DNA of 62,047 bases from Lactobacillus sp. UCMA15818 (GTDB lineage: Bacteria; Bacillota; Bacilli; Lactobacillales; Lactobacillaceae). The position numbers and the translations under genes are program-made. The notes below the pieces were generated by a model, which was given only the letters and a program-made list of their open reading frames with translations, ran no database searches and was not told where the DNA came from. Every line of letters starts with the position of its first letter. Position 1 is the first letter of the stretch. Shown one piece after another: positions 6,282 through 61,973 of this stretch. The stretch covers positions 1-62,047 of the forward strand of contig NZ_VJYB01000010.1 of NCBI RefSeq assembly GCF_030400225.1. The letters run 5' to 3'.

Positions 6282-8243
6282 CTAACGTCTCGTAACCGCC
6301 ACTAACTTATCACCAACAGTCACCCTTTCTGTCTTGATTCTATCCACACTTGCATAATCAACAGTATTTGTCACCACAACCATCACCGTTGTATCATATC
6401 CAGCAGATTTGACAGCTACTACATCGAAATTCCCTAACTTCTGGCCTTTTTCTACGTGCTGTCCTTGAACAACTTCAGAAGTGAAATGCTTTCCCTTAAG
6501 CTCAACAGTATCAATTCCAAGGTGTAATAGGACTTCTGCACCATTGTCCGACTTTATTCCATATGCATGTTTTGTTTCATATGCAACAGTGATTTCACCA
6601 GAAACTGGGGCAAAAACATCTCCATTATTTGGAATAATTGCAGCGCCATCACCCATTAACTTGGCTGAAAATACCTTATCATTCACAGTAGTTAAAGATT
6701 CTGCTTCTCCGGCAACTGGAGCGACGATAATCTCATCTTTGAGATTTATTTGTCGTTGTGCAACTTCAGTAGCCTCTTGTTCAACCTCAACTTGTTCAGT
6801 ACCGCTTGCAACTGGTAATGGATCAATTAATTGCTGATGACTCTTTCCATATAGATAAGTTAACGTAAATGCCATTGCGAAACTAATTAATTCTCCAACT
6901 GCATACATTGGAATTGACTTAACATCAACCGACAAGAACCCAATAAAGCCAGCTGAGCCAAGCGAACGTGCCAAAACATGGAAGAAGCCTGCAAAAGCAG
7001 ATGAAATTCCTGCAGCAATGATCGCACAAAAGAATGGAAACTTGAGTTTCAAATTAACTCCAAACATCGCTGGTTCTGTAATTCCTAAAAGAGCAGATGC
7101 ACTCGCTGAAGATGCAAGGCCACGTAGTTTTTGGTTTTTTGAAAGTAAGTATACCGCAAGACAGGCCGCACCTTGAGCAACATTAGCCATTGACGCGATT
7201 ACAAAAATAAAATCACCACCGGTTTTTCCAATGTTTGAAATAAGCTGAGTCTCAATTGCTGGGAAGCTCTGATGCAATCCTGTAAGAACAATTGGGGAAT
7301 ACAATAATCCAAAGACCCCAGTCCCAACAAAACCACCAGTGTTATATAACCAAACAATTCCACTTGTGATACCATCACTGACCGTTCTCATCACTGGACC
7401 TACAACTGTAAAGGTCAATAACCCAGTTATAATAATTGCTAATAGTGGTGTAAAAGTAAAATCAAGGGCACTCGGCAATTTTTTGTGAAAGAATTTTTCT
7501 AGATTGGCTAAAATATAAACCGCTGCCAAAGTTGGAATTACTGAATTTTGATAACCTGCTTGGGCAACATTCAAGCCGAATATATGCCAATATGTCATCT
7601 TCCCCGCCGCCAAAGCTGTAGCAACATCACCAGAAGTTATTAATGATGGCGCACACATTATCATTCCCATTGCGGCTCCGAGATATTGATTCCCACCGAA
7701 GCGCTTCGCAGCTGAAACACCCACTAAAATTGGCATAAAAGTAAATGGTGCACCTGCCATCAAATTAATAATTTCATCTAGCCCTGTAAATTGTGGATAC
7801 ATCTGAATAATTGATTTAGCACCAAACAACCCTTGTGCAGTTAAAATATTATTAAGGGCCATCAATAAACCACCGGCAACTAAGGCTGGAATAATTGGAA
7901 CAAAAATATCAGATAATAACTTTATGAATGCCATTACTGGATTAAATTTTTTGTCTTTTTCTACAACTTTTTTCAATTCTTCTGTGGTCGCTTCTGAAAG
8001 ACCGGTCTGTTTTATTAATTCTTCATAAACATTGTTTACATCACCTGGGCCGATAATAATTTGAAACTGACCATTGGTTTTAAATGTCCCCTTGACTCCT
8101 GGATTATTTTCCAATGCATTTTGATCAATTTTTTCATCATCTTTTAACACTAGTCTTAAACGTGTAGCACAATGAGCTGCTGCCACAATATTATCTTGAT
8201 TAAGAGCTTTTATAATATCTGTAGCTACTTTTTTGTGATTCAT
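6282..8243 (-). CDS. scrA: Sucrose-specific PTS transporter EIIBCA
   Basis: This 653-residue membrane permease takes up and phosphorylates sucrose to sucrose-6-phosphate. Domain order is EIIB (phospho-Cys in [10 protein letters not shown], Cys25), EIIC membrane domain (about 105-465, with the GITEPAMFG motif) and a C-terminal EIIA domain with its phospho-His in [10 protein letters not shown]. The length is normal for the glucoside/sucrose BCA class. It is divergent from scrB-scrR-scrK with operator-like sites in between. Beta-glucoside or trehalose specificity is possible in this family, but the scr neighbours make sucrose most likely. Confidence 0.9.
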
Positions 8244-22898: not shown

Positions 22899-22920
22899 TT
22901 CTTTATTTTACACTGAAAAG

Positions 22921-23092
22921 AGTGTGTCATAAGTTGGGAAAATTTGAGTCCCAACTAGAAATTACGAACATAGCGAGTACTTTGCTATGAGTAATTCGAA
23001 GTTAAAGGGAGTTTTGACTTATGAAACATGTTTACTCGTAATAAATAAAGGAACTGAATCAAAAATTAACTTTTGACTCAGTCCCTATCTAT
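22921..23092 (-). repeat. Dispersed intergenic repeat, near full-length copy (minus orientation)
   Basis: Read on the minus strand: hairpin CTGAGTCAAAAGTTAA..., bridge, GTTTCATAAGTCAAAA, then the palindrome AATTACTCATAGCAAAGT...GCTATGTTCGTAATT and the tail ATGACACACTC. The hairpin at 23049-23083 probably terminates the LysR transcript. Confidence 0.7.
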
Positions 23093-31128: not shown

Positions 31129-32520
31129 CTATTGCTTCAAATACACATATGCTTGCTGTGCAGCCTGTCTTCCAAAAACAACTGTTTCTGCAATGGAGTT
31201 GCCTCCGATTCGATTATTACCATGTAATCCACCTGCAACCTCTCCAGCAGCGAAAATTCCTGGAATCACATATCCATTTCCATCTAATACTCTGGTCTTC
31301 TCATCAACATGGACCCCACCCATTGTATAATGGACTGCTGGTGCAACATGAATTGCATAATATGGCCCTGCATCTAATTTGATGTTCATTCCTGTTTTTC
31401 TGCCAAATTCGGTATCCACTGTGGTTTCAACTGCCTTATTCCATTCTGATAAAGTTGAAACTAAGTTCTTACTATCAATTTTTAAGATTTCAGCCAATTC
31501 AGCAATTGTTGGTGCACTCTTTATCAATCCTATATGATTATAGAATTCAATTGCCTTAACACGTTTTCTGACTTTTTCATCAAAGATTAGGTACGCACTC
31601 TTTTCTGGTAAAGCAGTAATTGCATGTGAAACAATTTTTCTTGTATCCAATTCATCAACAAATCGTTTTCCTTTTGCAGATACAAGAATGGCCCCTTCAC
31701 CACGAACCGTTTCGCCTATCAGATATGCATGCGGTGTGTCTTGTTGCACTGTCGGATGAATTTGAATCATTTCCATCTGAATCAATTCCGCGCCTATTTC
31801 TTGTGCCAGCAACAATCCATCCCCCGTTGCACCACTTTGGTTGGTCGTCTTATAATTCATCAATTCTGGACGATATTTCTTGATCCATTCACTGCCAGCC
31901 CCAAAGCCACCGGTTGCAATGACAATCGACTTCCCCGTAATCGTCTTTTGCGTCTTATCATCCAGACTGATAACTACTTGCATATCAGCCGTATTCTTCT
32001 TTATATGTTCAACCTTAACTTGTGTAAATAGAGGAATTTTCTCTCTCTGAACAACACCTAACAGCCCTTTAATTAAATATGCTCCAACTGGTGCAGTTGA
32101 AGCTGGCCGATGTGCTCTTTTTTTGCTCATTCCACCTGTAATCGTTAGATCCGTCAACTCTATATTGTGCGAAGAAAGCCATTCAATCGCCAATGCAGCA
32201 TGCGTAGTAAAATATTCCAACATTTCTTGGTTATTCAGCTTTCCTCCACCTTGATATGTCTCATTATAGAATTCAGCAAAACTGTCAACTACTCCATGTG
32301 TTAATTGTACTTCCGTTTCGGCAGCATTCATGCCAGATGATGCACGATTAGTATTACCTCCAATCTTATCCATTTTTTCTAGAATAACTGGTTTGAGTCC
32401 AAGTTCATTTGCTTGGATTGCGCAAGTTAGGCCCGTACTGCCGGAGCCTATTATTATTACATCGTAATCTGCTTTAAGTTGCTCAATTGGGCTAGATGTG
32501 AAAACGAACTTTTCAGGCAT
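31129..32520 (-). CDS. Soluble FAD-dependent fumarate reductase
   Basis: This 463-residue FAD_binding_2 flavoprotein has FAD motif DVIIIGSGSTGLTCA near the N-terminus, GKRFVDELDTRK (catalytic Arg region), HYTMGGVHVD (substrate His) and GGLHGNNRIGGNS (substrate Arg), matching the fumarate reductase active site. There is no signal peptide, heme motif or FMN-binding domain, so it is a cytoplasmic enzyme reducing fumarate to succinate. The ATG at 32520 has GAGGAG upstream. It lies 64 bp after fumC on the same strand. Confidence 0.85.
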   Translation of the reverse strand: MPEKFVFTSSPIEQLKADYDVIIIGSGSTGLTCAIQANELGLKPVILEKMDKIGGNTNRASSGMNAAETEVQLTHGVVDSFAEFYNETYQGGGKLNNQEMLEYFTTHAALAIEWLSSHNIELTDLTITGGMSKKRAHRPASTAPVGAYLIKGLLGVVQREKIPLFTQVKVEHIKKNTADMQVVISLDDKTQKTITGKSIVIATGGFGAGSEWIKKYRPELMNYKTTNQSGATGDGLLLAQEIGAELIQMEMIQIHPTVQQDTPHAYLIGETVRGEGAILVSAKGKRFVDELDTRKIVSHAITALPEKSAYLIFDEKVRKRVKAIEFYNHIGLIKSAPTIAELAEILKIDSKNLVSTLSEWNKAVETTVDTEFGRKTGMNIKLDAGPYYAIHVAPAVHYTMGGVHVDEKTRVLDGNGYVIPGIFAAGEVAGGLHGNNRIGGNSIAETVVFGRQAAQQAYVYLKQ

Positions 32521-32584
32521 TCTTTTTTCTCCTCTCATTTTTAGCACTATTTACATTTAAACTTTCTATTCCTACACACACTCT

Positions 32585-33967
32585 TTACTTTGAGTTAATT
32601 TGTGTCATCTTCTTAGGATCTACCCATTTATCAAAATCACTTTCTGAAATCTCTCCCGAGTCTAATGCCACTTCTTTCAATGAAAGGCCTTGCTTTTGTG
32701 CCTTTTGTGCGATCTCAGCACTTTTATGATATCCCAAATGCGGTGACAAAGCTGTAACAGTCATTAGTGAATTATCTACTAAAGCTGCCATTTTCTTTTC
32801 ATTAACTGTCATTCCAGCAATCATTTTTTCATTAAAGCCATTGACGGTAAGCGCCAGCAAGTTCGCTGATTCCAGAAAAGCCTCAATAATCACAGGTTTA
32901 TAAACATTCATTTCAAAGTTTCCTTGTGATGCTGCCACTGAAATTACTGTGTCGTTGCCAATCACACGCACAGCTGCCATCGTTAGTGCCTCGGCCTGCG
33001 TAGGATTAACTTTACCTGGCATGATTGATGATCCAGGCTCATTTGCCGGAATATTCAATTCACCATACCCAGCACGAGGACCGCTTGCTAAAAACCTAAC
33101 ATCATTTGCAATTTTAAGCAAATCTGCCGCCAACGTTTTTAGTGTCCCATGTACAGCGTTTATCGCTGAGTGTGCAGCTAATCCATAAAACTTATTATTT
33201 TTCACATTGAATTTGCCTTGATAATATTTACTAAGCTCATCATTTACAATTTCAGTAAATTCTTTTGTTGTGTTCAGCCCTGTTCCTACCGCAGTTCCTC
33301 CTAGCGGCAATTCATACAAACTCTCCTTTGTACCATTGATAAACCCTAAATCATGCTCCAACATGCTTACCCAACCGCTAATTTCTTGACCAAAAGTCAA
33401 TGGCGTTGCATCCTGCAGGTGTGTTCTCCCTATCTTTACAGTCTCCCAATAAAGATCTTGTTTATTCTTTAACGTGATAGTTAGTTTCTGAACTTCTGTA
33501 ATGACATTCTTCAAAGCCTGAGTCGCTGCAATATTCATCGCGGTAGGGAAAACGTCATTAGAACTTTGACCCATATTAACATCATCATTTGGTAAAATTT
33601 CTAGACTGGAATTAAGCTGCTTCGCCATATGGGCGATAACTTCATTAACATTCATATTCGTTTGTGTCCCGGAACCGGTTTGATAAACGCGCAATGGAAA
33701 GTCACGCCTTAATTCTGCATCTTCAAGCTGTAATAAGGCATCAGCCGACTTGATAATTAAATCACTTTTTTCTTCAGTCAGCTTTCTTAGTTGCCCATTA
33801 GCCACTGCGGCGGACCTTTTAATTACTAATAATACTCTAATTACATCCAAAGGCATCTTGTTGCCCGCTTTGAAATTTTGCCTACTTCTCTCAGTTTGTG
33901 CCCCCCACAGGACATTTACAGGAATATTAACAGGCCCAATTGTATCGCTCTCAACTCTAAAATCCAC
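32585..33967 (-). CDS. fumC: Fumarate hydratase, class II
   Basis: This 460-residue enzyme interconverts malate and fumarate. The family signature GSSIMPGKVNP, the catalytic regions GSGTQTNMN and TxLQDATPLTFGQE, and NDVFPTAMN are present. The start is GTG at 33967 with AAAAGGAG 10 bp upstream; an in-frame ATG at 34039 would add 24 unconserved residues. Together with the next gene it forms a malate-fumarate-succinate branch that can reoxidise NADH. Confidence 0.92.
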   Translation of the reverse strand: MDFRVESDTIGPVNIPVNVLWGAQTERSRQNFKAGNKMPLDVIRVLLVIKRSAAVANGQLRKLTEEKSDLIIKSADALLQLEDAELRRDFPLRVYQTGSGTQTNMNVNEVIAHMAKQLNSSLEILPNDDVNMGQSSNDVFPTAMNIAATQALKNVITEVQKLTITLKNKQDLYWETVKIGRTHLQDATPLTFGQEISGWVSMLEHDLGFINGTKESLYELPLGGTAVGTGLNTTKEFTEIVNDELSKYYQGKFNVKNNKFYGLAAHSAINAVHGTLKTLAADLLKIANDVRFLASGPRAGYGELNIPANEPGSSIMPGKVNPTQAEALTMAAVRVIGNDTVISVAASQGNFEMNVYKPVIIEAFLESANLLALTVNGFNEKMIAGMTVNEKKMAALVDNSLMTVTALSPHLGYHKSAEIAQKAQKQGLSLKEVALDSGEISESDFDKWVDPKKMTQINSK

Positions 33968-34023
33968 TTTGTTGCAACTCCTTTTATATGATAGTTTGTT
34001 AAGTTTTACACAATAAATTTTAC

Positions 34024-34198
34024 AAGGGAGCTGAGTCAAAAGTTATATTTTGATTCGGTTCCTCTTTTATCTATTAAGAATAAACGTGTTTCATAAGTCA
34101 AAACTCTCCGTCTAACTTAGAATCATTCATAGCAAAGTTTTCACTATGTTCATAATTTTGAGTTAGTTTTCAAATTCCCCCGACTTTGTACTGCCTTC
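34024..34198 (+). repeat. Dispersed intergenic repeat, near full-length copy
   Basis: It has the complete order: GAGTCAAAAGTTATATTTTGATTC hairpin (given here in parts), TTTCATAAGTCAAAACT, then the ATTCATAGCAAAGT...CTATGTTCATAATTT palindrome, and the end CCCGACTTTGTACTGCC. It lies between fumC and the aldo/keto reductase. Confidence 0.7.
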
Positions 34199-40369: not shown

Positions 40370-42046
40370 CTAACTCGTAACCTCCGCTTTCTTGAAGGCC
40401 TGCCTAATTTCAATCTGTTTTTCAACTTCAGCCAACATCTTACCCTTTGTTTCATCTGACCAGTTGTAGTAATTAGCCATTTCATCAATTATTCCTCTAT
40501 AAACCAACTTCATGTGTTCAAATCCAAATAGCATTTGACTACTTCTACGTAAAAGATAATCAATTGGATGAACTACCATTTCATCTTCTAACCCATAATG
40601 CAGTTGAGCATAATCAAGCGGATCCAATTCTGTAGCTGCTTCCTTAGCTTCTGCTAAAAACTTGTAGACCTCATCAACATTTAGACCATAGCGATGAACT
40701 AGAGCTTCTGCTTGTGCTTCCTCTAAACCGTCATCAATACCTCGTTCAACTGCTTCTGGTAAGAACTCTTTAAATCCCTTACTCCCCTTATTATCTGCCC
40801 CTGACAATGGTAAATTTTCTGTTTGTGTCTCTACATAGTGATAGTCGCCATATTCTTGTACAAAATCTTTAGCCAATTTATCAATAATCTTCTCTGCCAT
40901 CTTGCGATATCCGGTTAACTTACCCCCTGCAATTGAATATAGACCCGAATCCGAATGAAAAATTTCATCTTTACGCGAAATTTCGGAAGGACTCTTGCCT
41001 TCTTCTTGAATTAATGGTCTAACACCTGACCAAGCAGACTCAACATCTGCGAAAACCAGTGGTTCAATTGCAAACATCTGATTAACGGCACTCAAAATAT
41101 AATGTACATCTTTACTTGTAATTGATGGCTCACTTGCATCTTTATCCCAACTAGTATCAGTTGTACCAAAATATGTCTTGCCTTCACGTGGAATGACAAA
41201 CATCATCCTTTTATCATTGAACGGTGTATCAAAGAAAATCGCATTTTTAACTGGGAATTTTGCATTATCAACAACTAAATGAACACCCTTAGTAAGATGC
41301 AAATGCTTGCCTACATCACCATCCATTTGTCTAATATTATCTACCCATGGTCCCGCTGCGTTAACAACACGTTTTGCATAAATTGTCCCTGTTTCACCGG
41401 AGACTTGGTCAACATATCTTGCCCCATTCACTTTTCCTTGGCCATTGTATGTCAGGTCGGTAACTTTTGTGTAATTTGCCAACAAAACTCCTTGTTCATT
41501 TGCCCTTTTAGCTACCTCTAAAACAAGCCGTGCGTCATCTGTTCGATACTCAACATATACTCCGGTTCCTTTTAATCCATCAGCCTTTAGATATGGCTCG
41601 CGCTTAAGAGAGTCACTAGGATCAAGCATGAATTTTCGCTCATTTTTTTTCACTTTTGCTAAATAATCGTAAACGTCTAGAGCAAGTGCTGTTGTGAACT
41701 TACCAAAAGTTCCACCTGCATAAAATGGAAGCATCATCTTCACCGGTGTTGTCACATGTGGTGCGTTCTCGTAGACAATTGCCCGCTCAGATCCAACCTC
41801 TGCCACTTCATGAATCGCAAGTTGTTTAAGATAGCGCAACCCACCATGAACAAGTTTAGTTGATCTGCTGGAAGTTCCAGAAGCAAAGTCCCGCATTTCT
41901 ATTAGACCAGTCTTCAAGCCTCTCGTCTCAGCATCTAGGGCAATTCCGACACCCGTTATCCCACCACCGATTACTAGCACATCAAGTTCTTCATCTTGCA
42001 TTTTCTGTAAATTATTTTCTCTTGTCTGCATATTAAAAGTCGTCAT
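40370..42046 (-). CDS. glpD: Glycerol-3-phosphate dehydrogenase/oxidase, FAD-dependent
   Basis: This 558-residue FAD enzyme oxidises glycerol-3-phosphate to dihydroxyacetone phosphate. It has the N-terminal FAD motif VLVIGGGITGVGIAL, the FASGTSSRSTKLVHGGLRYL signature and the C-terminal DAO domain. It lacks the roughly 50-residue insert of streptococcal GlpO, which the second copy at 60005-61732 has. The ATG at 42046 has AAGGAGGGG upstream. It follows glpK by 15 bp, so the pair is one operon under a cre site. Confidence 0.9.
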   Translation of the reverse strand: MTTFNMQTRENNLQKMQDEELDVLVIGGGITGVGIALDAETRGLKTGLIEMRDFASGTSSRSTKLVHGGLRYLKQLAIHEVAEVGSERAIVYENAPHVTTPVKMMLPFYAGGTFGKFTTALALDVYDYLAKVKKNERKFMLDPSDSLKREPYLKADGLKGTGVYVEYRTDDARLVLEVAKRANEQGVLLANYTKVTDLTYNGQGKVNGARYVDQVSGETGTIYAKRVVNAAGPWVDNIRQMDGDVGKHLHLTKGVHLVVDNAKFPVKNAIFFDTPFNDKRMMFVIPREGKTYFGTTDTSWDKDASEPSITSKDVHYILSAVNQMFAIEPLVFADVESAWSGVRPLIQEEGKSPSEISRKDEIFHSDSGLYSIAGGKLTGYRKMAEKIIDKLAKDFVQEYGDYHYVETQTENLPLSGADNKGSKGFKEFLPEAVERGIDDGLEEAQAEALVHRYGLNVDEVYKFLAEAKEAATELDPLDYAQLHYGLEDEMVVHPIDYLLRRSSQMLFGFEHMKLVYRGIIDEMANYYNWSDETKGKMLAEVEKQIEIRQAFKKAEVTS

Positions 42047-42061
42047 CAATACCCCTCCTTA

Positions 42062-43624
<1,563 letters not shown>

Positions 43625-54679: not shown

Positions 54680-56701
54680 TTAACCAACTACTACATGTTT
54701 CTTGTACTTATCAACCAAATGAACTTCATTCAAAATCCCCCTAGCTTCTTGTGTTCCTTCATAGATTCGACGAGCACGCTTGGAGTCTCCAATATTCAAC
54801 AATGTTATTCCTTCATTTTGTGCAAATTGTTGTAAATCGTTAAAACCTGGAATATAACTTCTCATCCCTAAGCATACAAAAGCTTTATCGAATTGTAATG
54901 TTCTCTCTTCGTCCGCACAGCTCACAACTGCTGCTGTATTTGAAATTGATAACAACTTAGTACCGACAAACTGTTCAACATTATATTTATTTAATAACTC
55001 TTTCATACCAAGTTTAGTAATTATATCCAAGTCTTTGCCTATTTCAGGTAACATCTCTACCATTGCTACTTTAGAATTCTGATGTTCCGTAAAGTATTCC
55101 ATTACGTCTAGCCCAACAGCACCTCCACCAATGACTAAGATCTTTTCTTCTTTTTGATTAAAGCGCTCTAAGTCATTTAATAAATCAAAAATATCAAACA
55201 CATGAGAATCATTCTCCATACGTGCTTCTTGTAATCCTTCGATTGGTGGTAAAAACGGATGAGCACCAGTTGCATTAATAATGATATCTGGTTTCTGCTT
55301 CTTAATTATATCCAAGTCTGCATATTCATTTAGATGGATCTCAAGATTACTCAACTTTTCTGCTCTTACTCGCAAATAATTTACATAATCATCTATTCTT
55401 CGCTTGTCAGGTAAACGTGCAATCTCATGGGCCAATCCACCTAAATAACTTTTTTTCTCATAAAGGCATACTTCCGCGCCTATTTCTGCAGCAGAACAAG
55501 CTGCTTCAAGAGCTGTCGTCCCTCCACCAATTACAACTATTTTAATTTTGTTTTTTAATTTATCCAGTTTAAAATCATCTTCACCAATTACGTCAGGATT
55601 TACTGTGCAACGGATTGGAAGCCCCTTCCCGATTCGATGATCTGCACACCCAATATTACATGAAATACATTTTCTCAGCAGCTCTTTATTTCCGAATTTC
55701 ACCTTATTGACCCAATTAGGCTCTGCAATCAAACCTCGGCCCATTGCAATCAGATCTGCTTGCCCTGATTCCAATACTCTTTCAGTTACTTGAGGGGATC
55801 TAAAATTCCCAGAAGTAACAGTAATCTTATTAAATTTATTTTTTACTTTCTGTGCCATGAACGAACGCCAACCATCTGGTAGATTCATCTTATCAATCTG
55901 ATATTGTAAATTATCATTGATTCCGGCAGAAACATTCAGAATATCAGCTTCTTTACTGAAGTAACTTAATAATTCTAGAACGTCATCAATCGTATTTCCA
56001 TCCTTAACAAATTCGTCAGCACTAACTCTTACAGAAATTGGGAAACGCGGCCCGACAGCTTTTCGAACAGCTCCCAAAACCTCATTTGCAAATCTTGCTC
56101 GGTTTTTCGCAGAACCACCATATTGATCAGTCCTATGATTATAATGTGGTGAAAGAAATTGATCAAGTAAGTAGCTATGTCCAGCATGAATTTCAATACA
56201 ATCAAACCCTGCTCTTTTTGCACGATCTGCGGCAATTGCATACTTACTGACTATCATCCTTATCTCCTCGATTGTTAAAGGCCGAGGGGAATTCATTCCT
56301 TTTTTAGAAGCAACATCTGATGCAGATACTGGCTGAAGACCATTTAACCTCAATGTAGTTGCAGATGCTCCAGCATGGTTAATCTGAACAGAAGTACATG
56401 CACCATAGGCATGCATCCTTTCGTTAAACTTCCAAAGACCTGGTAAAAATTGATCATTATCCATCCTTAATTGAGTCGTTCCATTAGTCCCCATTGGATA
56501 ATCAAAACATACATTTTCCAAAGTAATTAAGGCTGTGCCACCTTTTGCCCTTTGTTCATAGTATTTAATATGATCATCATTAATTGTACCATCATAGTTA
56601 GCAAAATTAGATCCCATTGGTGGCATAACAATCCTGTTCTTTAATGTCATCCCGTTAATTGTAATAGGCTCAAAAATATACGGATATCTATTCATTATCA
56701 T
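54680..56701 (-). CDS. OYE-type NADH:flavin oxidoreductase with Fe-S and FAD domains (enoate reductase-like)
   Basis: This 673-residue enzyme is of the 2,4-dienoyl-CoA/enoate reductase, FldZ and BaiCD type. The order is an OYE TIM barrel with FMN (about 1-335, with EIHAGHSYLLDQFLSP), a [4Fe-4S] site (Cys345, Cys348, Cys352, Cys365), then an FAD domain (VVIGGGTTALEA, about 389) and an NAD-binding half (ILVIGGGAVGLDVMEYF). It passes hydride from NADH to an activated C=C bond; the substrate is unknown. AAGGAG precedes two possible ATGs (56701, 56695). It lies downstream of the covalent-FMN reductase on the same strand but after a terminator. Confidence 0.85.
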   Translation of the reverse strand: MIMNRYPYIFEPITINGMTLKNRIVMPPMGSNFANYDGTINDDHIKYYEQRAKGGTALITLENVCFDYPMGTNGTTQLRMDNDQFLPGLWKFNERMHAYGACTSVQINHAGASATTLRLNGLQPVSASDVASKKGMNSPRPLTIEEIRMIVSKYAIAADRAKRAGFDCIEIHAGHSYLLDQFLSPHYNHRTDQYGGSAKNRARFANEVLGAVRKAVGPRFPISVRVSADEFVKDGNTIDDVLELLSYFSKEADILNVSAGINDNLQYQIDKMNLPDGWRSFMAQKVKNKFNKITVTSGNFRSPQVTERVLESGQADLIAMGRGLIAEPNWVNKVKFGNKELLRKCISCNIGCADHRIGKGLPIRCTVNPDVIGEDDFKLDKLKNKIKIVVIGGGTTALEAACSAAEIGAEVCLYEKKSYLGGLAHEIARLPDKRRIDDYVNYLRVRAEKLSNLEIHLNEYADLDIIKKQKPDIIINATGAHPFLPPIEGLQEARMENDSHVFDIFDLLNDLERFNQKEEKILVIGGGAVGLDVMEYFTEHQNSKVAMVEMLPEIGKDLDIITKLGMKELLNKYNVEQFVGTKLLSISNTAAVVSCADEERTLQFDKAFVCLGMRSYIPGFNDLQQFAQNEGITLLNIGDSKRARRIYEGTQEARGILNEVHLVDKYKKHVVVG

Positions 56702-56744
56702 TATTCTCCTTCTTAAAAATTTTATTTCATCTTCTGTAAAACTT

Positions 56745-56927
56745 TAATTGAGGTTGGGTCAAAAGTTAAATTTTGATTCATTCTCTATTTATTACAAATA
56801 AACGAACTTCATAAGCCAAAACTTTCCGTCTAACTTCGAATTACTCATAGCAGAGTTTTCACTATGTTCGTAATTTCTAGTTGTTACTCAAATTTCCTCG
56901 AATTATGGCACACTCCCAAAGTTTTCT
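56745..56927 (+). repeat. Dispersed intergenic repeat, near full-length copy
   Basis: It has GGGTCAAAAGTTAAATTTTG, CTTCATAAGCCAAAACTTTC, then the palindrome AATTACTCATAGCAGAGT...CTATGTTCGTAATTT, and the tail TATGGCACACTCCC. It lies upstream of the OYE gene, in its promoter region. Confidence 0.7.
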
Positions 56928-57166
56928 CGTTGCTTGTGATATCAAAATCAATCTTTAAAATGCTAATATATTTTACAACTCGGCAAATATTTTTTTGAAT
57001 CACTAAAAAGTCTGTTAAATTAGTAATCCAAGCTCAAAAAAGCCAAAACTTATACTATCTAAAATAGAATAAAGGTATATCCTATTCTCATTCTTTATTT
57101 TTTGTTACCTTATTCACATATTATAATCAAAAAATTCAATATAATAAATAAATAAAATTTCAATAA

Positions 57167-57201
57167 TTCATAAAGAAAATCTATTGAATTGCCTTTATGA
57201 A
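57167..57201. repeat. Inverted repeat in the AT-rich gap before the OYE gene
   Basis: TTCATAAAG (57167-57175) and CTTTATGAA (57193-57201) are perfect arms 17 bp apart. The surrounding 56930-57226 is AT-rich and gene-free; an operator or minor hairpin is possible. Confidence 0.3.
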
Positions 57202-57226
57202 ACTTATTTCATACTTAAACAAGTTA

Positions 57227-57284
57227 TAAAAAGCTGTAACTAACTCTCTCGATTCAAACTAATTCGAGAAAGCCCGTTACAGCT
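57227..57284 (-). terminator. Terminator after the covalent-FMN reductase gene
   Basis: AGCTGTAAC pairs with GTTACAGCT, with inner arms CTTTCTCGA/TCGAGAGAG, followed by TTTTTAT on the minus strand. It separates this operon from the OYE gene. Confidence 0.75.
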
Positions 57285-57305
57285 GTTCTTTATTTAATAT
57301 TATTT

Positions 57306-59015
57306 TTATATCTGATGCTCGTAGTCAACTGCTGCTTTTCCTGCCGCAAAGCCAGAAGAAAAACTCCAACTATTCATCATACTTGGCATTGAATCACGTC
57401 CGTTCGCTCCACCAATAATTTCCCCTGTACCAAATAAGTTCTTAACTGGGCGATTCATGCTATTAAGCAAGTTCATTTTGTCGTCAACCATATATCCACC
57501 TAAAGTAGTGGCAAATCTATCTCTTTGTTCTATTGCATAGAATGTATTTCCTTCGAATAGATGCATACAATCATTAGTTCTACCAAATTCAAGATCTTCT
57601 CCATTCACTACATATTCGCGATATTTCTTCAGTGTTGTAATTAGCTCATTCCCGTCTATCTTTGCTTTAGTAGCAATTTCTTCAAGTGAACCCTTTACAA
57701 AAATTGGATTCTTACTTCCATCATTTTTCAAATATTCCTTTATTTCATTTTCAGAGAAATCATGTAACAACAACAGTTTGTAAAACTCCTTCCATGTCCG
57801 TTCATCCATAATTAAATATGCAACTCTCCCTGATTGTTTCAAAATTGCATCTCGGAATTTTGTGTAGACCTCGGATTCATTAACTATTCTTTTACCTTCC
57901 TTATTTACATAGATAGCTCCCATATCCGTTGCTAACTTAGAGGCATAGGTCGTTAACTTAGCAATTCCTGGCTCTACTTCAACACCATGTGGATAAATTT
58001 TGAGCCAATCCGAATCATGAACTTTCAATGATAATGCATGCGTAAATTGATACGAATCTCCAGTAGAAGTCATAGGTCCGTAGTAATCGATGCCCTTCCC
58101 ATTTCCTTCCTTTAATACCTTAGCTCCATATCCGCCAGCGGCTAATATTATGCTCTTAGCTTCAATGTAGTAAGAAGCATGTTTACTTTCTGCAATGACC
58201 CCTTTGACCATATTTCCTTCAACCACAATATCTTCAACTCGGACATCTAGCAGTATCTCTCCGCCTTTTTTTTGAAATGATTCAGACATCTTACTAATAA
58301 ACTCGTAACTACTTGAACTAGGTAATTCAATCTGGCGCTCCACACTATGTTCAGGTGTCTGCGTTTGTGCCTTCTTATAATCCAAATTTGCAAACTCGCT
58401 AACAAAATCAATTGCATCCCCAATATTATCTACCATAATTCTTGTTAAGTTAGTATAATTTGTTTTTCTTGATTCTTTAAAAACATCATTAGCAAGAAGC
58501 TCAGGAGAGTCCTTGTAATCTGACCCAAATATCTTCTTACTTGTTTTTGAACCCGTACCTACAATATTTGATCCATTTAAAATGGTTGCTCCACCCATAT
58601 ACCCATTCTTCTCTAATAGAATAACTTTTGATCCTAAAGACAATGCCTTACTAGCTGCTACTAAACCTGCGCCCCCTCCGCCTACAACAAGAGTGTCTGT
58701 AATTATTTGTTTTCTTGCCTGGCTTTGTTCATCCTCAATTTTTCTACCATTCAACTCTATTTTACTGTCAACCATGGCCTCCTTTGCTGTATCTAAAATT
58801 GCTTTAGTCATTATTGTTGCACCACTAACTGTATCAACATCAAAGCTTTGATTAGAGAGTACATCACCCTTCAGCTTACTAAAAACCTGATTGAATATTC
58901 CTGGTGTTTCCGTGTGCTTGATGACTTTTAAATCTTTAATTTCATTTTTATCAATATTAATTTCAAATTCTATTTTTCCATTACGACCTTGAGTCTTTAA
59001 ATTTATTTTTTCCAT
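57306..59015 (-). CDS. Flavoprotein reductase with covalent-FMN domain and FAD_binding_2 domain
   Basis: This 569-residue cytoplasmic flavoprotein has an N-terminal FMN_bind domain (about 1-85) with the ApbE flavinylation motif DTVSGAT (acceptor Thr67), then an FAD_binding_2 domain (FAD motif VVGGGGAGLVAA, about 110). There is no signal peptide. The architecture equals fumarate, urocanate, acrylate or cinnamate reductases. However, the fumarate-site catalytic Arg position reads NESEVYTKF (Tyr), the substrate His reads FATTLGGYM (Thr), and the final Arg loop reads GGANGRDSMPSMM. A substrate other than fumarate is therefore likely. It lies 36 bp after a RibF paralog. Confidence 0.85.
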   Translation of the reverse strand: MEKINLKTQGRNGKIEFEINIDKNEIKDLKVIKHTETPGIFNQVFSKLKGDVLSNQSFDVDTVSGATIMTKAILDTAKEAMVDSKIELNGRKIEDEQSQARKQIITDTLVVGGGGAGLVAASKALSLGSKVILLEKNGYMGGATILNGSNIVGTGSKTSKKIFGSDYKDSPELLANDVFKESRKTNYTNLTRIMVDNIGDAIDFVSEFANLDYKKAQTQTPEHSVERQIELPSSSSYEFISKMSESFQKKGGEILLDVRVEDIVVEGNMVKGVIAESKHASYYIEAKSIILAAGGYGAKVLKEGNGKGIDYYGPMTSTGDSYQFTHALSLKVHDSDWLKIYPHGVEVEPGIAKLTTYASKLATDMGAIYVNKEGKRIVNESEVYTKFRDAILKQSGRVAYLIMDERTWKEFYKLLLLHDFSENEIKEYLKNDGSKNPIFVKGSLEEIATKAKIDGNELITTLKKYREYVVNGEDLEFGRTNDCMHLFEGNTFYAIEQRDRFATTLGGYMVDDKMNLLNSMNRPVKNLFGTGEIIGGANGRDSMPSMMNSWSFSSGFAAGKAAVDYEHQI

Positions 59016-59051
59016 AATTCATTTCTCCTCTAAAATCTTCAAAAAATATTA

Positions 59052-59915
59052 TTAATTTAACCGCTGTAATATATTCATTACACTTGCGCCCTTTTTCGTT
59101 GCTTTACTATTCAAAAATCTAATTTTTACATTTCTTCCAGTCATTAGCCAGTTACATTTACCTATTATTTCAGCATTATTATTTAACATTCTTATTTGCA
59201 CTGGAAATTTCTCTCCAGACAGCTCCACTTCTCCATCATATATTCCATCAGCTGGACGAACTTGAAATTCATTTTTCTGAACAAATTTATCAAAACTTTG
59301 TTTACCTTTCCTCACGATAATACTGCCTTCAATTTCATAAATATGCCCCAATAATTCATTTGCAGAATTTATTTCACCTAATTTAATTAATTGTCGAATT
59401 AAAGTTGATCCTATCTTTTCACCTTGGTATGTTTCTTCAGGTATCATAATGACATCGAATCGTCCTTCACTGTACACTTGCATTTTTTTCATGTTTGCAA
59501 TCCCATACTTCCCAAATGTATAGTCAAATCCTGCTACCACAGTATCGCTATTTAATTTAATAATAAAACTCTCAACAAATTCATATGGCGATAAAGATGC
59601 AAACTCCATTGTAAACTCTACAACATATAAAATATCCGCTCCAATGTCTTCTAAAAGTCGTTCTTTTTGAGATAAATTGCATAGGTATCTTATTTTAAAA
59701 GGTGCCTTCGGTCCACTAAACACCTCTGAAGCATGTTTATCAAATGTCATAACAGCAAGAGGTAATCCCTTTCTTAATGCTATTTTTTTAGCCTCACTAA
59801 TAACTTTTTGATGTCCTAAATGAACACCATCAAAAAAGCCTAAAGCAAGTACAATCTTATGCGGGTCAACAAGCTTTTTTAAATTATATGGATATTTCAA
59901 ATCAATGATTTTCAT
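59052..59915 (-). CDS. RibF paralog: FAD synthetase domain with degenerate riboflavin kinase part
   Basis: This 287-residue protein has an intact N-terminal FMN adenylyltransferase domain: GFFDGVHLGHQKVI, AGFDYTFGKYG and GSTLIRQLIKLGEI. The C-terminal part lacks the riboflavin kinase motif (GxPTAN) and reads RKGKQSFDKFVQKNEF there, so it should make FAD from FMN but not FMN from riboflavin. AGAGG precedes the ATG. Its place between two FAD enzymes suggests a dedicated FAD supply, like FmnA in flavin-based electron-transfer loci. Confidence 0.82.
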   Translation of the reverse strand: MKIIDLKYPYNLKKLVDPHKIVLALGFFDGVHLGHQKVISEAKKIALRKGLPLAVMTFDKHASEVFSGPKAPFKIRYLCNLSQKERLLEDIGADILYVVEFTMEFASLSPYEFVESFIIKLNSDTVVAGFDYTFGKYGIANMKKMQVYSEGRFDVIMIPEETYQGEKIGSTLIRQLIKLGEINSANELLGHIYEIEGSIIVRKGKQSFDKFVQKNEFQVRPADGIYDGEVELSGEKFPVQIRMLNNNAEIIGKCNWLMTGRNVKIRFLNSKATKKGASVMNILQRLN

Positions 59916-60004
59916 ATTAGCACCTCTTTTAGTTGCCCCTTAAAAATATACGAAAAAACTGTGAATGACCTAAGACTGCCACACACAGTAAGTTTTTTAC
60001 CTTG

Positions 60005-61732
60005 CTACTTTAAATACGTCAATTCAGATTCGTCAATTGCCTTATTCAATTCTTCAGTTCTTATAGAAAGTTCTTCCGTATCCCACTCTAAATAATTAGC
60101 CATATTTTTAAGTACTGCTTTTTTTACCTCATTCAAAGTATTCGCCTTAAATAACATATGATATGTTCTGCGCAATAAGTAATCTACTGGATCAAGAACC
60201 AATTCTTCATCAAGAGAGTATCTGAGTGTTGCTGCTTCAGCTTTTGAAAGTCCTTCAATATTCTCAACACTATTTAATAAATTAAATATTTTAGTAGCAT
60301 TAGATCCAAACATCTTTGCGATTGAAAGTGCTTCTTCGTGATTGAGCCCCTTATCTTCACCAATCTTTGCAAATTCAGCTAATACTTCTTCCACATTCTC
60401 TGAATCAAAATTGCCACCTGAAACTATGGTTTCCTTAGAATCAGCTAATATAAATTCTTTATTGAAATCATTTTCTAATTTTTTTACAATCATTTCGAGA
60501 GCTGCCTGTGCCATTAAACGATAATCTGTCAATTTTCCTCCAGCCAGAGTGATTAATCCATCTTCACCAACAGCTAAAGAGCTCCCCCTCGAAACTGTTG
60601 ATGGAGCTTTAGAATTGCTTACAGATTGACTAGCTCCTGAAACCACATCCGTCGTGTTGTCTGTTATAATTAATGGTCGTAGTCCAGCCCAACTAGACTC
60701 AATATCATCTATTGTTAAATTAGCTGTTGGATATTTTCTATTGATTATCTTAAGCAGATAATCTACATCCTCCATATCTACTGTTGGATTTTCAAAGTCA
60801 CCATGATAATCAGTATCAGTCGTTCCAAAATACGTCTTACCTTCCCGAGGTATTGTAAAAATCATGCGGCCGTCATCTGTACCAGAACCAAAATAAGTTG
60901 GCTGTGGTACTTGCAATTTTGAGCTATCTACAACGAGATGTATTCCCTTTGTAGGCCGCATTTGTGGTCTATCCGTATTTGTATTATCAATTGACTTCAC
61001 TAAATCTGACCATGGACCGCCTGCATTAATGATAACTTTTGCTTTAATTTCAAATTTCTCACCTGTCAGCATATCCTTAACTGTGCATCCTACAGCCCGA
61101 TTGTTTACATCATGTAATATTTCAACCGCTTTTATACGATTCAACATAATCCCGCCGTCATCGTGGGCCTTTTTCACTGCTTCAATTACCAATCGTGAAT
61201 CATTATTTTGATAGTCCAAGTATACCCCGGCCCCAACTAATTTATCTGGATTTAATTGTGGTTCTCTTTTTAGAACCTCTTCTTTAGTCAACGTATAGTT
61301 TGCATATTTCCTAAGCTGCTTAGATTTGTTGATTTCTGCTAAATGATCATATAAGTCCATTGCAACTTTGACAGAAAACATTGTAAATGTAGTTCCCGGT
61401 TCATCATAAATAGGTAAAATCATCGGATCAGGATAAACTAAATGTGGAGCAATATGTTGTACAATAGCTCGTTCTTTAACTGTGTCAGAGACAACCTGTA
61501 CATCAAAAGTTTTTAAATATCTAATTCCACCATGAACTAATCTTGTAGATCTTGATGATGTTCCACCGCCAAAGTCTTGCATATCGATCAGAGCCATCTT
61601 TATTCCTGAAGCGGCTGCTTGTAAGGCAACTCCTGCACCTGTAATACCTCCACCAATGACTAATAAATCAACTTCTTCACCATTTTTTAATAACTCAATT
61701 TCTTTTTGTCTTGTTTTTTTTGAAAAACCCAT
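60005..61732 (-). CDS. glpO: Alpha-glycerophosphate oxidase
   Basis: This 575-residue FAD enzyme oxidises glycerol-3-phosphate with O2 to dihydroxyacetone phosphate and H2O2. It has LLVIGGGITGAGVALQ, GTSSRSTRLVHGGIRYL and, unlike the copy at 40370-42046, a flexible Ser-rich insert near residues 370-400 (DVVSGASQSVSNSKAPSTVS) typical of GlpO. AAAGGAGG precedes the ATG at 61732. It is followed by the RibF paralog after 89 bp that contain a weak hairpin with T run. A cre-like site lies upstream. Confidence 0.88.
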   Translation of the reverse strand: MGFSKKTRQKEIELLKNGEEVDLLVIGGGITGAGVALQAAASGIKMALIDMQDFGGGTSSRSTRLVHGGIRYLKTFDVQVVSDTVKERAIVQHIAPHLVYPDPMILPIYDEPGTTFTMFSVKVAMDLYDHLAEINKSKQLRKYANYTLTKEEVLKREPQLNPDKLVGAGVYLDYQNNDSRLVIEAVKKAHDDGGIMLNRIKAVEILHDVNNRAVGCTVKDMLTGEKFEIKAKVIINAGGPWSDLVKSIDNTNTDRPQMRPTKGIHLVVDSSKLQVPQPTYFGSGTDDGRMIFTIPREGKTYFGTTDTDYHGDFENPTVDMEDVDYLLKIINRKYPTANLTIDDIESSWAGLRPLIITDNTTDVVSGASQSVSNSKAPSTVSRGSSLAVGEDGLITLAGGKLTDYRLMAQAALEMIVKKLENDFNKEFILADSKETIVSGGNFDSENVEEVLAEFAKIGEDKGLNHEEALSIAKMFGSNATKIFNLLNSVENIEGLSKAEAATLRYSLDEELVLDPVDYLLRRTYHMLFKANTLNEVKKAVLKNMANYLEWDTEELSIRTEELNKAIDESELTYLK

Positions 61733-61769
61733 TATAATTCCTCCTTTGATCTCAACCTCATTCACAAAA

Positions 61770-61804: not shown

Positions 61805-61973
61805 TACGGGGGTGGGTCAAAAGTTAAATTTTGATTCAGTTCCTCTACTTATTCCGTATAAACGTGTTTCATAAGTCAAAATTCTCCGTCTAACTTCGAA
61901 TTACTCATAGCAAAGTGCTTGCTATGTTCGTAATTTCGAGTTAGTACTCAAATTTTCCCGACTTTGTACTGCC
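61805..61973 (+). repeat. Dispersed intergenic repeat, full-length reference copy
   Basis: Order: GGGTCAAAAGTTAAATTTTG, CTCTACTTATTCCGTATAAA, GTTTCATAAGTCAAAATTC, a 57-bp imperfect palindrome at 61889-61945 centred on CAAAGTGCTTG, then CTCAAATTTTCCCGACTTTG and TACTGCC. It abuts the IS3 element end. Confidence 0.75.

Follow-up and report, generated by a model that had tools for sequence, protein, structure and literature searches.

A candidate quinate/shikimate reduction locus with two flavin enoate reductases in Lactobacillus sp. UCMA15818

Flavin enzyme genes at a contig end and their continuation

The subject of this analysis is a group of flavin enzyme genes at one end of contig NZ_VJYB01000010.1 of Lactobacillus sp. 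UCMA15818 (assembly GCF_030400225.1), studied over positions 1 to 62,047 of the forward strand, a stretch of 62,047 nucleotides that we call the window. We argue that this region is very probably part of one gene cluster for the uptake and reduction of quinate and shikimate, in which two unrelated flavin enoate reductases probably saturate a ring C=C, that of 3-dehydroshikimate or of shikimate, as an electron sink. Four open reading frames lie together on the minus strand, and their Pfam domains bear out the gene content and orientation described in the original prediction. An NAD(P)H/Fe-S/FMN/FAD enoate reductase of the old yellow enzyme (OYE) type, assigned by Pfam and ortholog comparison, is encoded at 54680-56701 (673 amino acids; Oxidored_FMN and Pyr_redox_2). 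It carries the Fe-S motif CxxCxxxCx12C, as do all five orthologs compared, and because it combines this motif and an FMN TIM-barrel domain with a pyridine-nucleotide/FAD half it could take NAD(P)H by itself. A reductase with FMN_bind and FAD_binding_2 domains, here called FMNB, is encoded at 57306-59015 (569 amino acids), followed at 59052-59915 by RibF2 (287 amino acids), which has FAD_syn without Flavokinase, its riboflavin kinase part being degenerate. As the other RibF of the genome has both domains, RibF2 is indeed the FAD-synthetase-only paralog that had been proposed. GlpO2 (60005-61765; 586 amino acids from a GTG start, with an in-frame ATG that matches the end at 61732 first assigned; DAO and DAO_C) belongs to the type 1 glycerol-3-phosphate oxidase family, scoring 870.6 against a cut-off of 840. 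A second glpO lies beside a putative glpK at 40370-43624, and its product scores 559 against the same cut-off.

FMNB and OYE are separated by 604 bases. An intrinsic terminator, already noted, lies in this gap on the minus strand at approximately 57232-57284; it is absent from the listing of a simple terminator scan and was detected by folding of 57220-57300 (-29.4 kcal/mol, z -7.2, equalled by 0 of 200 shuffles). Part of the gap is a copy of a dispersed repeat of about 150 bases (56752-56904, strand not assigned), of which another copy lies upstream of glpO2 (61810-61964, strand not assigned). Further copies at 22920-23080 and 34032-34186, shorter pieces in the window, and copies in L055, L056, L009 and L053 (our locus labels) place the repeat at many genome sites; the long window copies are 80-88% alike, resembling a miniature inverted-repeat transposable element (MITE). 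No riboswitch or other RNA element was matched in Rfam up to E 1 between 50000 and 62047.

The locus appears to continue on another contig, C16. In Liquorilactobacillus mali (L088, the same as G256) the genes are contiguous in the order OYE-FMNB-ribF2-glpO-apbE-glpK-LysR, followed divergently by aroE-MFS-aroD-MFS, where MFS denotes a major facilitator superfamily carrier, and their products are 76-94% identical to those of the window genome (AroD over the 194 amino acids present). In the window genome apbE-glpK2-LysR and, divergently, aroE-MFS-aroD-MFS lie on C16. The end of a putative transposase frame (GLTPVEYRKQYLANN and a stop) is found at the window contig end (61998-62045, minus strand), and C16 opens at its left end with a putative frame start of the same kind; these frames, presumably of IS3 type, a label that carries no database match, are on the strand required by one element between apbE and glpO2. 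Because of the contiguous L. mali locus and both contig ends, we infer that the window contig and C16 are two halves of one locus split at an insertion element.

C16 carries what is expected of a qui-type locus, an AroE-type quinate/shikimate dehydrogenase, a type I AroD and an MFS carrier, to which the window genes would be joined. The best solved matches of this AroE are shikimate dehydrogenase 3tnl (360.8 bits) and then YdiB-type quinate/shikimate dehydrogenases. The LysR protein is QuiR-like as judged from sequence: its best solved match is 5ted (Lmo0488 of Listeria; 176.6 bits, the next match reaching 78.5), a structure of the effector domain of QuiR in complex with shikimate (PMC11602165). 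The ligand of the LysR protein may likewise be shikimate. The one ApbE found in the window genome is on C16 and has no signal peptide apparent by eye. A free-standing FMN reductase on contig C46 is 53% identical to the FMN_red domain that is fused to some FMNB relatives, and adjoins an MFS gene and a gene for a protein that matches the VprA model below its cut-off.

Active site and flavinylation of FMNB

Residues of FMNB were counted in an alignment of 68 proteins, that of the window and 67 relatives, and matched to those of flavocytochrome c3, whose entries include an Arg402Tyr mutant; the matching of columns is our own reading. The arginine and histidine contacts are conserved family-wide, with the arginine the likely proton donor, according to the UrdA paper (PMC7921117). 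In FMNB these residues are replaced. Tyr384 stands where S. frigidimarina flavocytochrome c3 has its proton-donor arginine, Arg402; Tyr341 occupies the His365 column; and the histidine pair is replaced by Ala, Cys or Ser at 502 (Ala in the window) and Thr503, each in 68 of 68 proteins. The Arg544 column is Ser542 in 66, with Ala and Pro once each, and is never Arg. The combination of Arg402, hinge histidine and Arg544 seen in fumarate and urocanate reductases is thus replaced throughout, and Lys353, His343, Arg388 and Asp541 are invariant. Two proteins of the same genome served as controls in this alignment, a fumarate reductase-like protein (31129-32547) and an HcrB-like protein; both keep both arginines and the first histidine, the pair being His-Tyr in the former and complete in the latter. 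The same two pass the flavocytochrome c cut-off of 285.45 (479.4 and 330.3, respectively), which FMNB fails at 211.8. Beside the gene at 31129 lies one that by eye encodes a putative fumarate hydratase, and the pair (31129-34039) is a possible separate fumarate sink.

The flavinylation motif of ApbE substrates, D-x-x-[S/T]-G-A-[S/T] (PMC12052999), is present in FMNB as DTVSGAT, with Thr67 as acceptor. It is exact in 67 of 68 proteins, one having Ala at the fourth place, and with an ApbE in the genome FMNB is predicted from sequence to be flavinylated. The acceptor residue is Ser rather than Thr in 24 of the 68.

A structural model of FMNB (predicted local distance difference test, pLDDT, 83.8) retrieved urocanate and fumarate reductases as its top folds; ketosteroid dehydrogenases first appear at rank 22 and cyclohexanone dehydrogenase at rank 31, with a further fumarate reductase, Osm1, in between. 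Ketosteroid and cyclohexanone dehydrogenases are cyclic-ketone enzymes, and the tyrosine-based site of FMNB may suit a cyclic enone such as 3-dehydroshikimate.

Distribution of the two reductases

Including its own genome, FMNB has relatives in 20 of 201 family genomes searched. Most of the 19 other stretches share aroE, aroD, LysR, MFS and ApbE genes, and sometimes genes for a short-chain dehydrogenase/reductase (SDR) or a TIM barrel; OYE, RibF2 and this GlpO are absent from all 19, some of which stop at a contig end. A scan of named genomes gave 71 loci, from which Alkaliphilus (29%) was excluded to leave 70. The genome samples and the named set overlap, L. mali being in both, so that the FMNB counts are not independent, and the HMMs used to label the genes were themselves built from some of these loci (L034-L054, L081, L083-L086). 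AroE or AroD lies within the stretch at 63 of the 70 loci, and at 59 of the 61 that are at least 13 kb long; the seven loci without either are L107, L122, L131, L139, L140, L152 and L153, five of them short. AroE, AroD or ApbE is a direct same-strand neighbour within 250 bases at 45 of 67 loci whose FMNB frame scored above 800. ApbE is within the stretch at 26/70 loci, an SDR at 16/70 and a TIM barrel like Lmo2234, which we take to be dehydroshikimate dehydratase, at 11/70. A C-terminal FMN_red domain is fused to FMNB at 25/70 loci, and is lacking in the window protein. OYE, RibF2 and GlpO each occur at one of the 70, in every case L. mali.

FMNB relatives are also encoded by 28 plasmid records, all from Ligilactobacillus. 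In the one that was read, from Ligilactobacillus salivarius (L184, 1-11365), AroE and AroD follow FMNB, an SDR and an Lmo2234-like TIM barrel (320.7 bits, two genes away) precede it, and UbiD/UbiX lie upstream, a possible catechol branch. At E 1e-20, the 71 named loci gave no UbiD/UbiX relatives. A search limited, among dehydratase families, to Lmo2234-like barrels detected none in C16 1-9000 or in the stretch from L. mali.

Orthologs of OYE with at least 70% identity occur in seven of 301 family genomes, its own included, and two more at 61-63% were found in 398 genomes of the class. Thirteen loci with at least 50% identity were examined: L. mali, G208, G146, G050, G108, G285, G684, G402, Listeria monocytogenes, L. 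innocua, two Klebsiella records and one Paenibacillus; a plasmid search matched further records outside this count. One Klebsiella record filed as a plasmid (L194, CP125156.1) is 5.37 Mb long and looks like a chromosome. AroE and/or AroD is in the stretch at 11 of the 13 loci (50-91% identity; lactobacilli, Listeria and Klebsiella), and at ten of the 13 OYE stands with aro genes and without FMNB. L. mali alone, among all the named FMNB and OYE loci surveyed, has both reductases. RibF2 is found in two of 301 family genomes, the window genome and L. mali (76%). Four other matches (E 1e-60) are 46-49% identical over the first 204-235 residues only, in frames of 315-320 amino acids, as would be expected of full RibF proteins.

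In a tree of 82 AroE proteins, the sequences from the window genome and L. mali cluster together (100/99), and two rows of the same genus that have only OYE group with them (100/95). A separate outer group, with weak support at its base (95/14), holds Listeria, Klebsiella and two OYE rows of the same order; L105 lies on a very long branch. Because of this grouping, a module of FMNB, ApbE, RibF2 and Glp genes seems to have joined an OYE-type operon before L. mali and the window strain diverged. Twenty further AroE loci comprised six with FMNB and 14 with neither reductase, and AroE was rejected as a marker of catabolic operons since the same family occurs without either. The idea of a third reductase at the 14 loci was set aside after five proteins in four of the loci were annotated; these were UvrA, UvrB, a glycosidase, a phosphotransferase system (PTS) protein and a rhodanese.

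Proposed ring reduction, its rivals and known systems

It is probable that the locus serves the reduction of quinate and shikimate as follows. The QuiR-like LysR protein would sense shikimate, the MFS carriers would import quinate or shikimate, and AroE and AroD would turn these into 3-dehydroshikimate, the ring C=C of which (or of shikimate) would be saturated by a flavin enoate reductase to give dihydroshikimate-type products. Electrons would come from NAD(P)H, which would thus be re-oxidised without oxygen, and because quinate would be oxidised once and reduced twice, one NAD(P)H would be consumed net. OYE would use its own NAD(P)H/FAD half, 4Fe-4S centre and FMN, and FMNB would pass electrons from covalent FMN to FAD, the separate FMN reductase being a candidate for its NAD(P)H input in the window genome. 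ApbE would attach FMN to FMNB from FAD, for which RibF2 may be a private FAD synthase. At most of the loci read one reductase or the other would serve, the two being stacked in L. mali and the window strain. Of the claims made earlier, the one that an unsaturated acid from plants serves as an electron sink stands as probable, with quinate or shikimate in place of the hydroxycinnamate suggested; the genome has a separate HcrB-like protein that keeps the catalytic residues. The claim that the reductases have their own flavin supply is supported, with RibF2 here and ApbE on the probably linked contig.

Biochemical descriptions of quinate and shikimate reduction by lactobacilli from cider and plants go back decades. 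A gene for the enoate reductase involved is named in none of the open-literature matches listed. According to a cider review, shikimic and quinic acids are metabolised by lactic acid bacteria, with catechol, ethylcatechol and other compounds as products (PMC7464816).

Several observations weigh against this interpretation. The products named in the cider review are catechol and ethylcatechol rather than reduced ring acids, and the adjacency of the two contigs in the window genome is drawn from L. mali and the contig ends. FMNB is mostly missing from other genomes of the same genus (found in none of seven in the 201-genome sample), and two of the FMNB loci of at least 13 kb (L107 and L152) have no aro genes. 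The same is true of the OYE of Paenibacillus (59.5%) and of that of G285, which is also broken by stops. The AroE is the only one that the search detected in a genome that also encodes chorismate synthase, and as such could also serve biosynthesis. The AroE family lacks both reductases at the 14 of 20 further loci, which were picked largely for lacking them, and in 15 of 82 tree rows, one of which (L151) was so scored only through a broken FMNB. The scheme gives glpK2 and glpO2 no role, and has only a candidate NAD(P)H donor for the 569-amino-acid FMNB.

Other arrangements of the same genes were considered. The original prediction had treated OYE and FMNB as a split NADH:enoate reductase, a single complex in which OYE takes NADH and hands electrons to FMNB. 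This would fit their side-by-side position in the window and L. mali, and would give the window FMNB, which needs a donor as it has no FMN_red domain, a partner with an NAD(P)H domain. We nevertheless consider it improbable. The fused domain is missing at 45 of 70 FMNB loci (a few with a gene that is broken or runs off the contig), and OYE is absent from the stretch at 44 of these 45; most OYE loci read have aro genes but no FMNB; the two genes are set apart by a terminator and 604 bases; and a free FMN reductase is encoded elsewhere in the genome. The prediction had held that rarity of the two reductases as neighbours would speak against their partnership, and this is what the survey revealed, so that a complex of OYE and FMNB is rejected as a rule. 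Doubtful to a similar degree is the proposal that GlpO2 is the private donor of FMNB, with glpK2-apbE-glpO2-ribF2-FMNB forming a flavin relay in which electrons would pass from glycerol-3-phosphate to GlpO2 FAD, to the covalent FMN of FMNB and on to 3-dehydroshikimate or shikimate. Such a relay would, if true, allow glycerol to be used without oxygen at the cost of a plant ring acid; it is at odds with the passing of the oxidase cut-off by GlpO2 and with the commonness of FMNB without the fused domain and without such a GlpO nearby. A variant of our preferred interpretation, in which the reductases act in sequence on different intermediates, is tentative at best, though a stronger candidate than these. 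One might act on the enone of 3-dehydroshikimate and the other on a further enone, which would arise once a ring hydroxyl is lost, toward 3,4-dihydroxycyclohexanecarboxylate. Retention of both reductases in two species is consistent with this, as is the SDR at 16/70 loci, which has a hydroxycyclohexanecarboxylate dehydrogenase model among its matches, below cut-off and not as the best; against it, most loci read have a single reductase.

Two further readings concern the chemistry. It is unlikely that the enzymes catalyse an oxidation, in which 3-dehydroshikimate would be dehydrogenated or aromatised in the manner of ketosteroid and cyclohexanone dehydrogenases. The tyrosine in place of the catalytic arginine, the presence of these dehydrogenases among the next folds, the L. 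salivarius plasmid with its TIM barrel near FMNB and UbiD/UbiX upstream, and the catechols named as cider products of quinic and shikimic acids (PMC7464816) would all agree with oxidation. In the loci, however, nothing was recognised that could accept the electrons of this step, and the FMN_red and NAD(P)H domains attached to or within the reductases point to an NAD(P)H donor. Known OYEs with this domain layout are reductases. Very unlikely is that FMNB reduces fumarate or hydroxycinnamate in the ordinary way and stands beside aro genes by chance. In sequence it best matches, among solved full-length proteins, the flavocytochrome c fumarate reductases, and 2lfc, a fragment close to it, was deposited as fumarate reductase. 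In contrast, the catalytic arginine and histidine pair are gone in every aligned protein, the flavocytochrome c cut-off is missed, and the aro genes are linked at 63/70 loci. On these residues and this gene context, fumarate and hydroxycinnamate were rejected as likely substrates of FMNB.

Taken with our preferred interpretation of ring reduction, the gene context names two candidate families for quinate/shikimate reduction, that of FMNB having a member deposited as 'fumarate reductase' (2lfc) and others annotated as 'FAD-dependent oxidoreductase'. FMNB belongs to a class of FMN_bind/FAD_binding_2 reductase with tyrosine for the usual catalytic arginine in all 68 aligned proteins. RibF2, an FAD synthase that lacks riboflavin kinase, seems dedicated to a flavinylated enzyme. 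The cytoplasmic NADH-dependent reductases of fumarate, acrylate and cinnamate in Klebsiella and Vibrio resemble this system in having FMN_bind and FAD_binding_2 domains and an ApbE in the genome; unlike in those enzymes, OYE and FMNB here are two proteins, each with a distribution of its own. The fumarate reductase of K. pneumoniae requires cytoplasmic ApbE (PMC12052999). The flavocytochrome c3/UrdA family shares its fold and FAD_binding_2 domain with FMNB and differs in the catalytic residues described above. HcrB of L. plantarum belongs to the same flavin reductase family, and the HcrB-like protein of the genome, so labelled from its domains rather than by comparison with the L. plantarum sequence, also has FMN_bind and FAD_binding_2; it differs from FMNB in sequence (24.8% identity), domain order, canonical catalytic residues and locus. 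This protein (L053:7252-9672; 806 amino acids) has an FMN_red-like N-terminus and is preceded by an FMN_red-like gene of 181 amino acids (6682-7227), and is the likelier hydroxycinnamate reductase of the genome, as judged by its residues. OYE shares the domain layout and Fe-S cysteines of BaiCD, 2-enoate reductase and 2,4-dienoyl-CoA reductase, and is below the BaiCD equivalog cut-off (468.9 against 825). The qui genes of Listeria, the pathway of which reportedly makes protocatechuate, differ in that no FMNB, ApbE, RibF2 or GlpO was found in the two stretches scanned. They are alike in uniting in one locus a QuiR-like regulator, AroE, AroD and an OYE that is 56.5-56.8% identical to that of the window, and the OYE family thus reaches from the lactobacilli to Listeria and Klebsiella.

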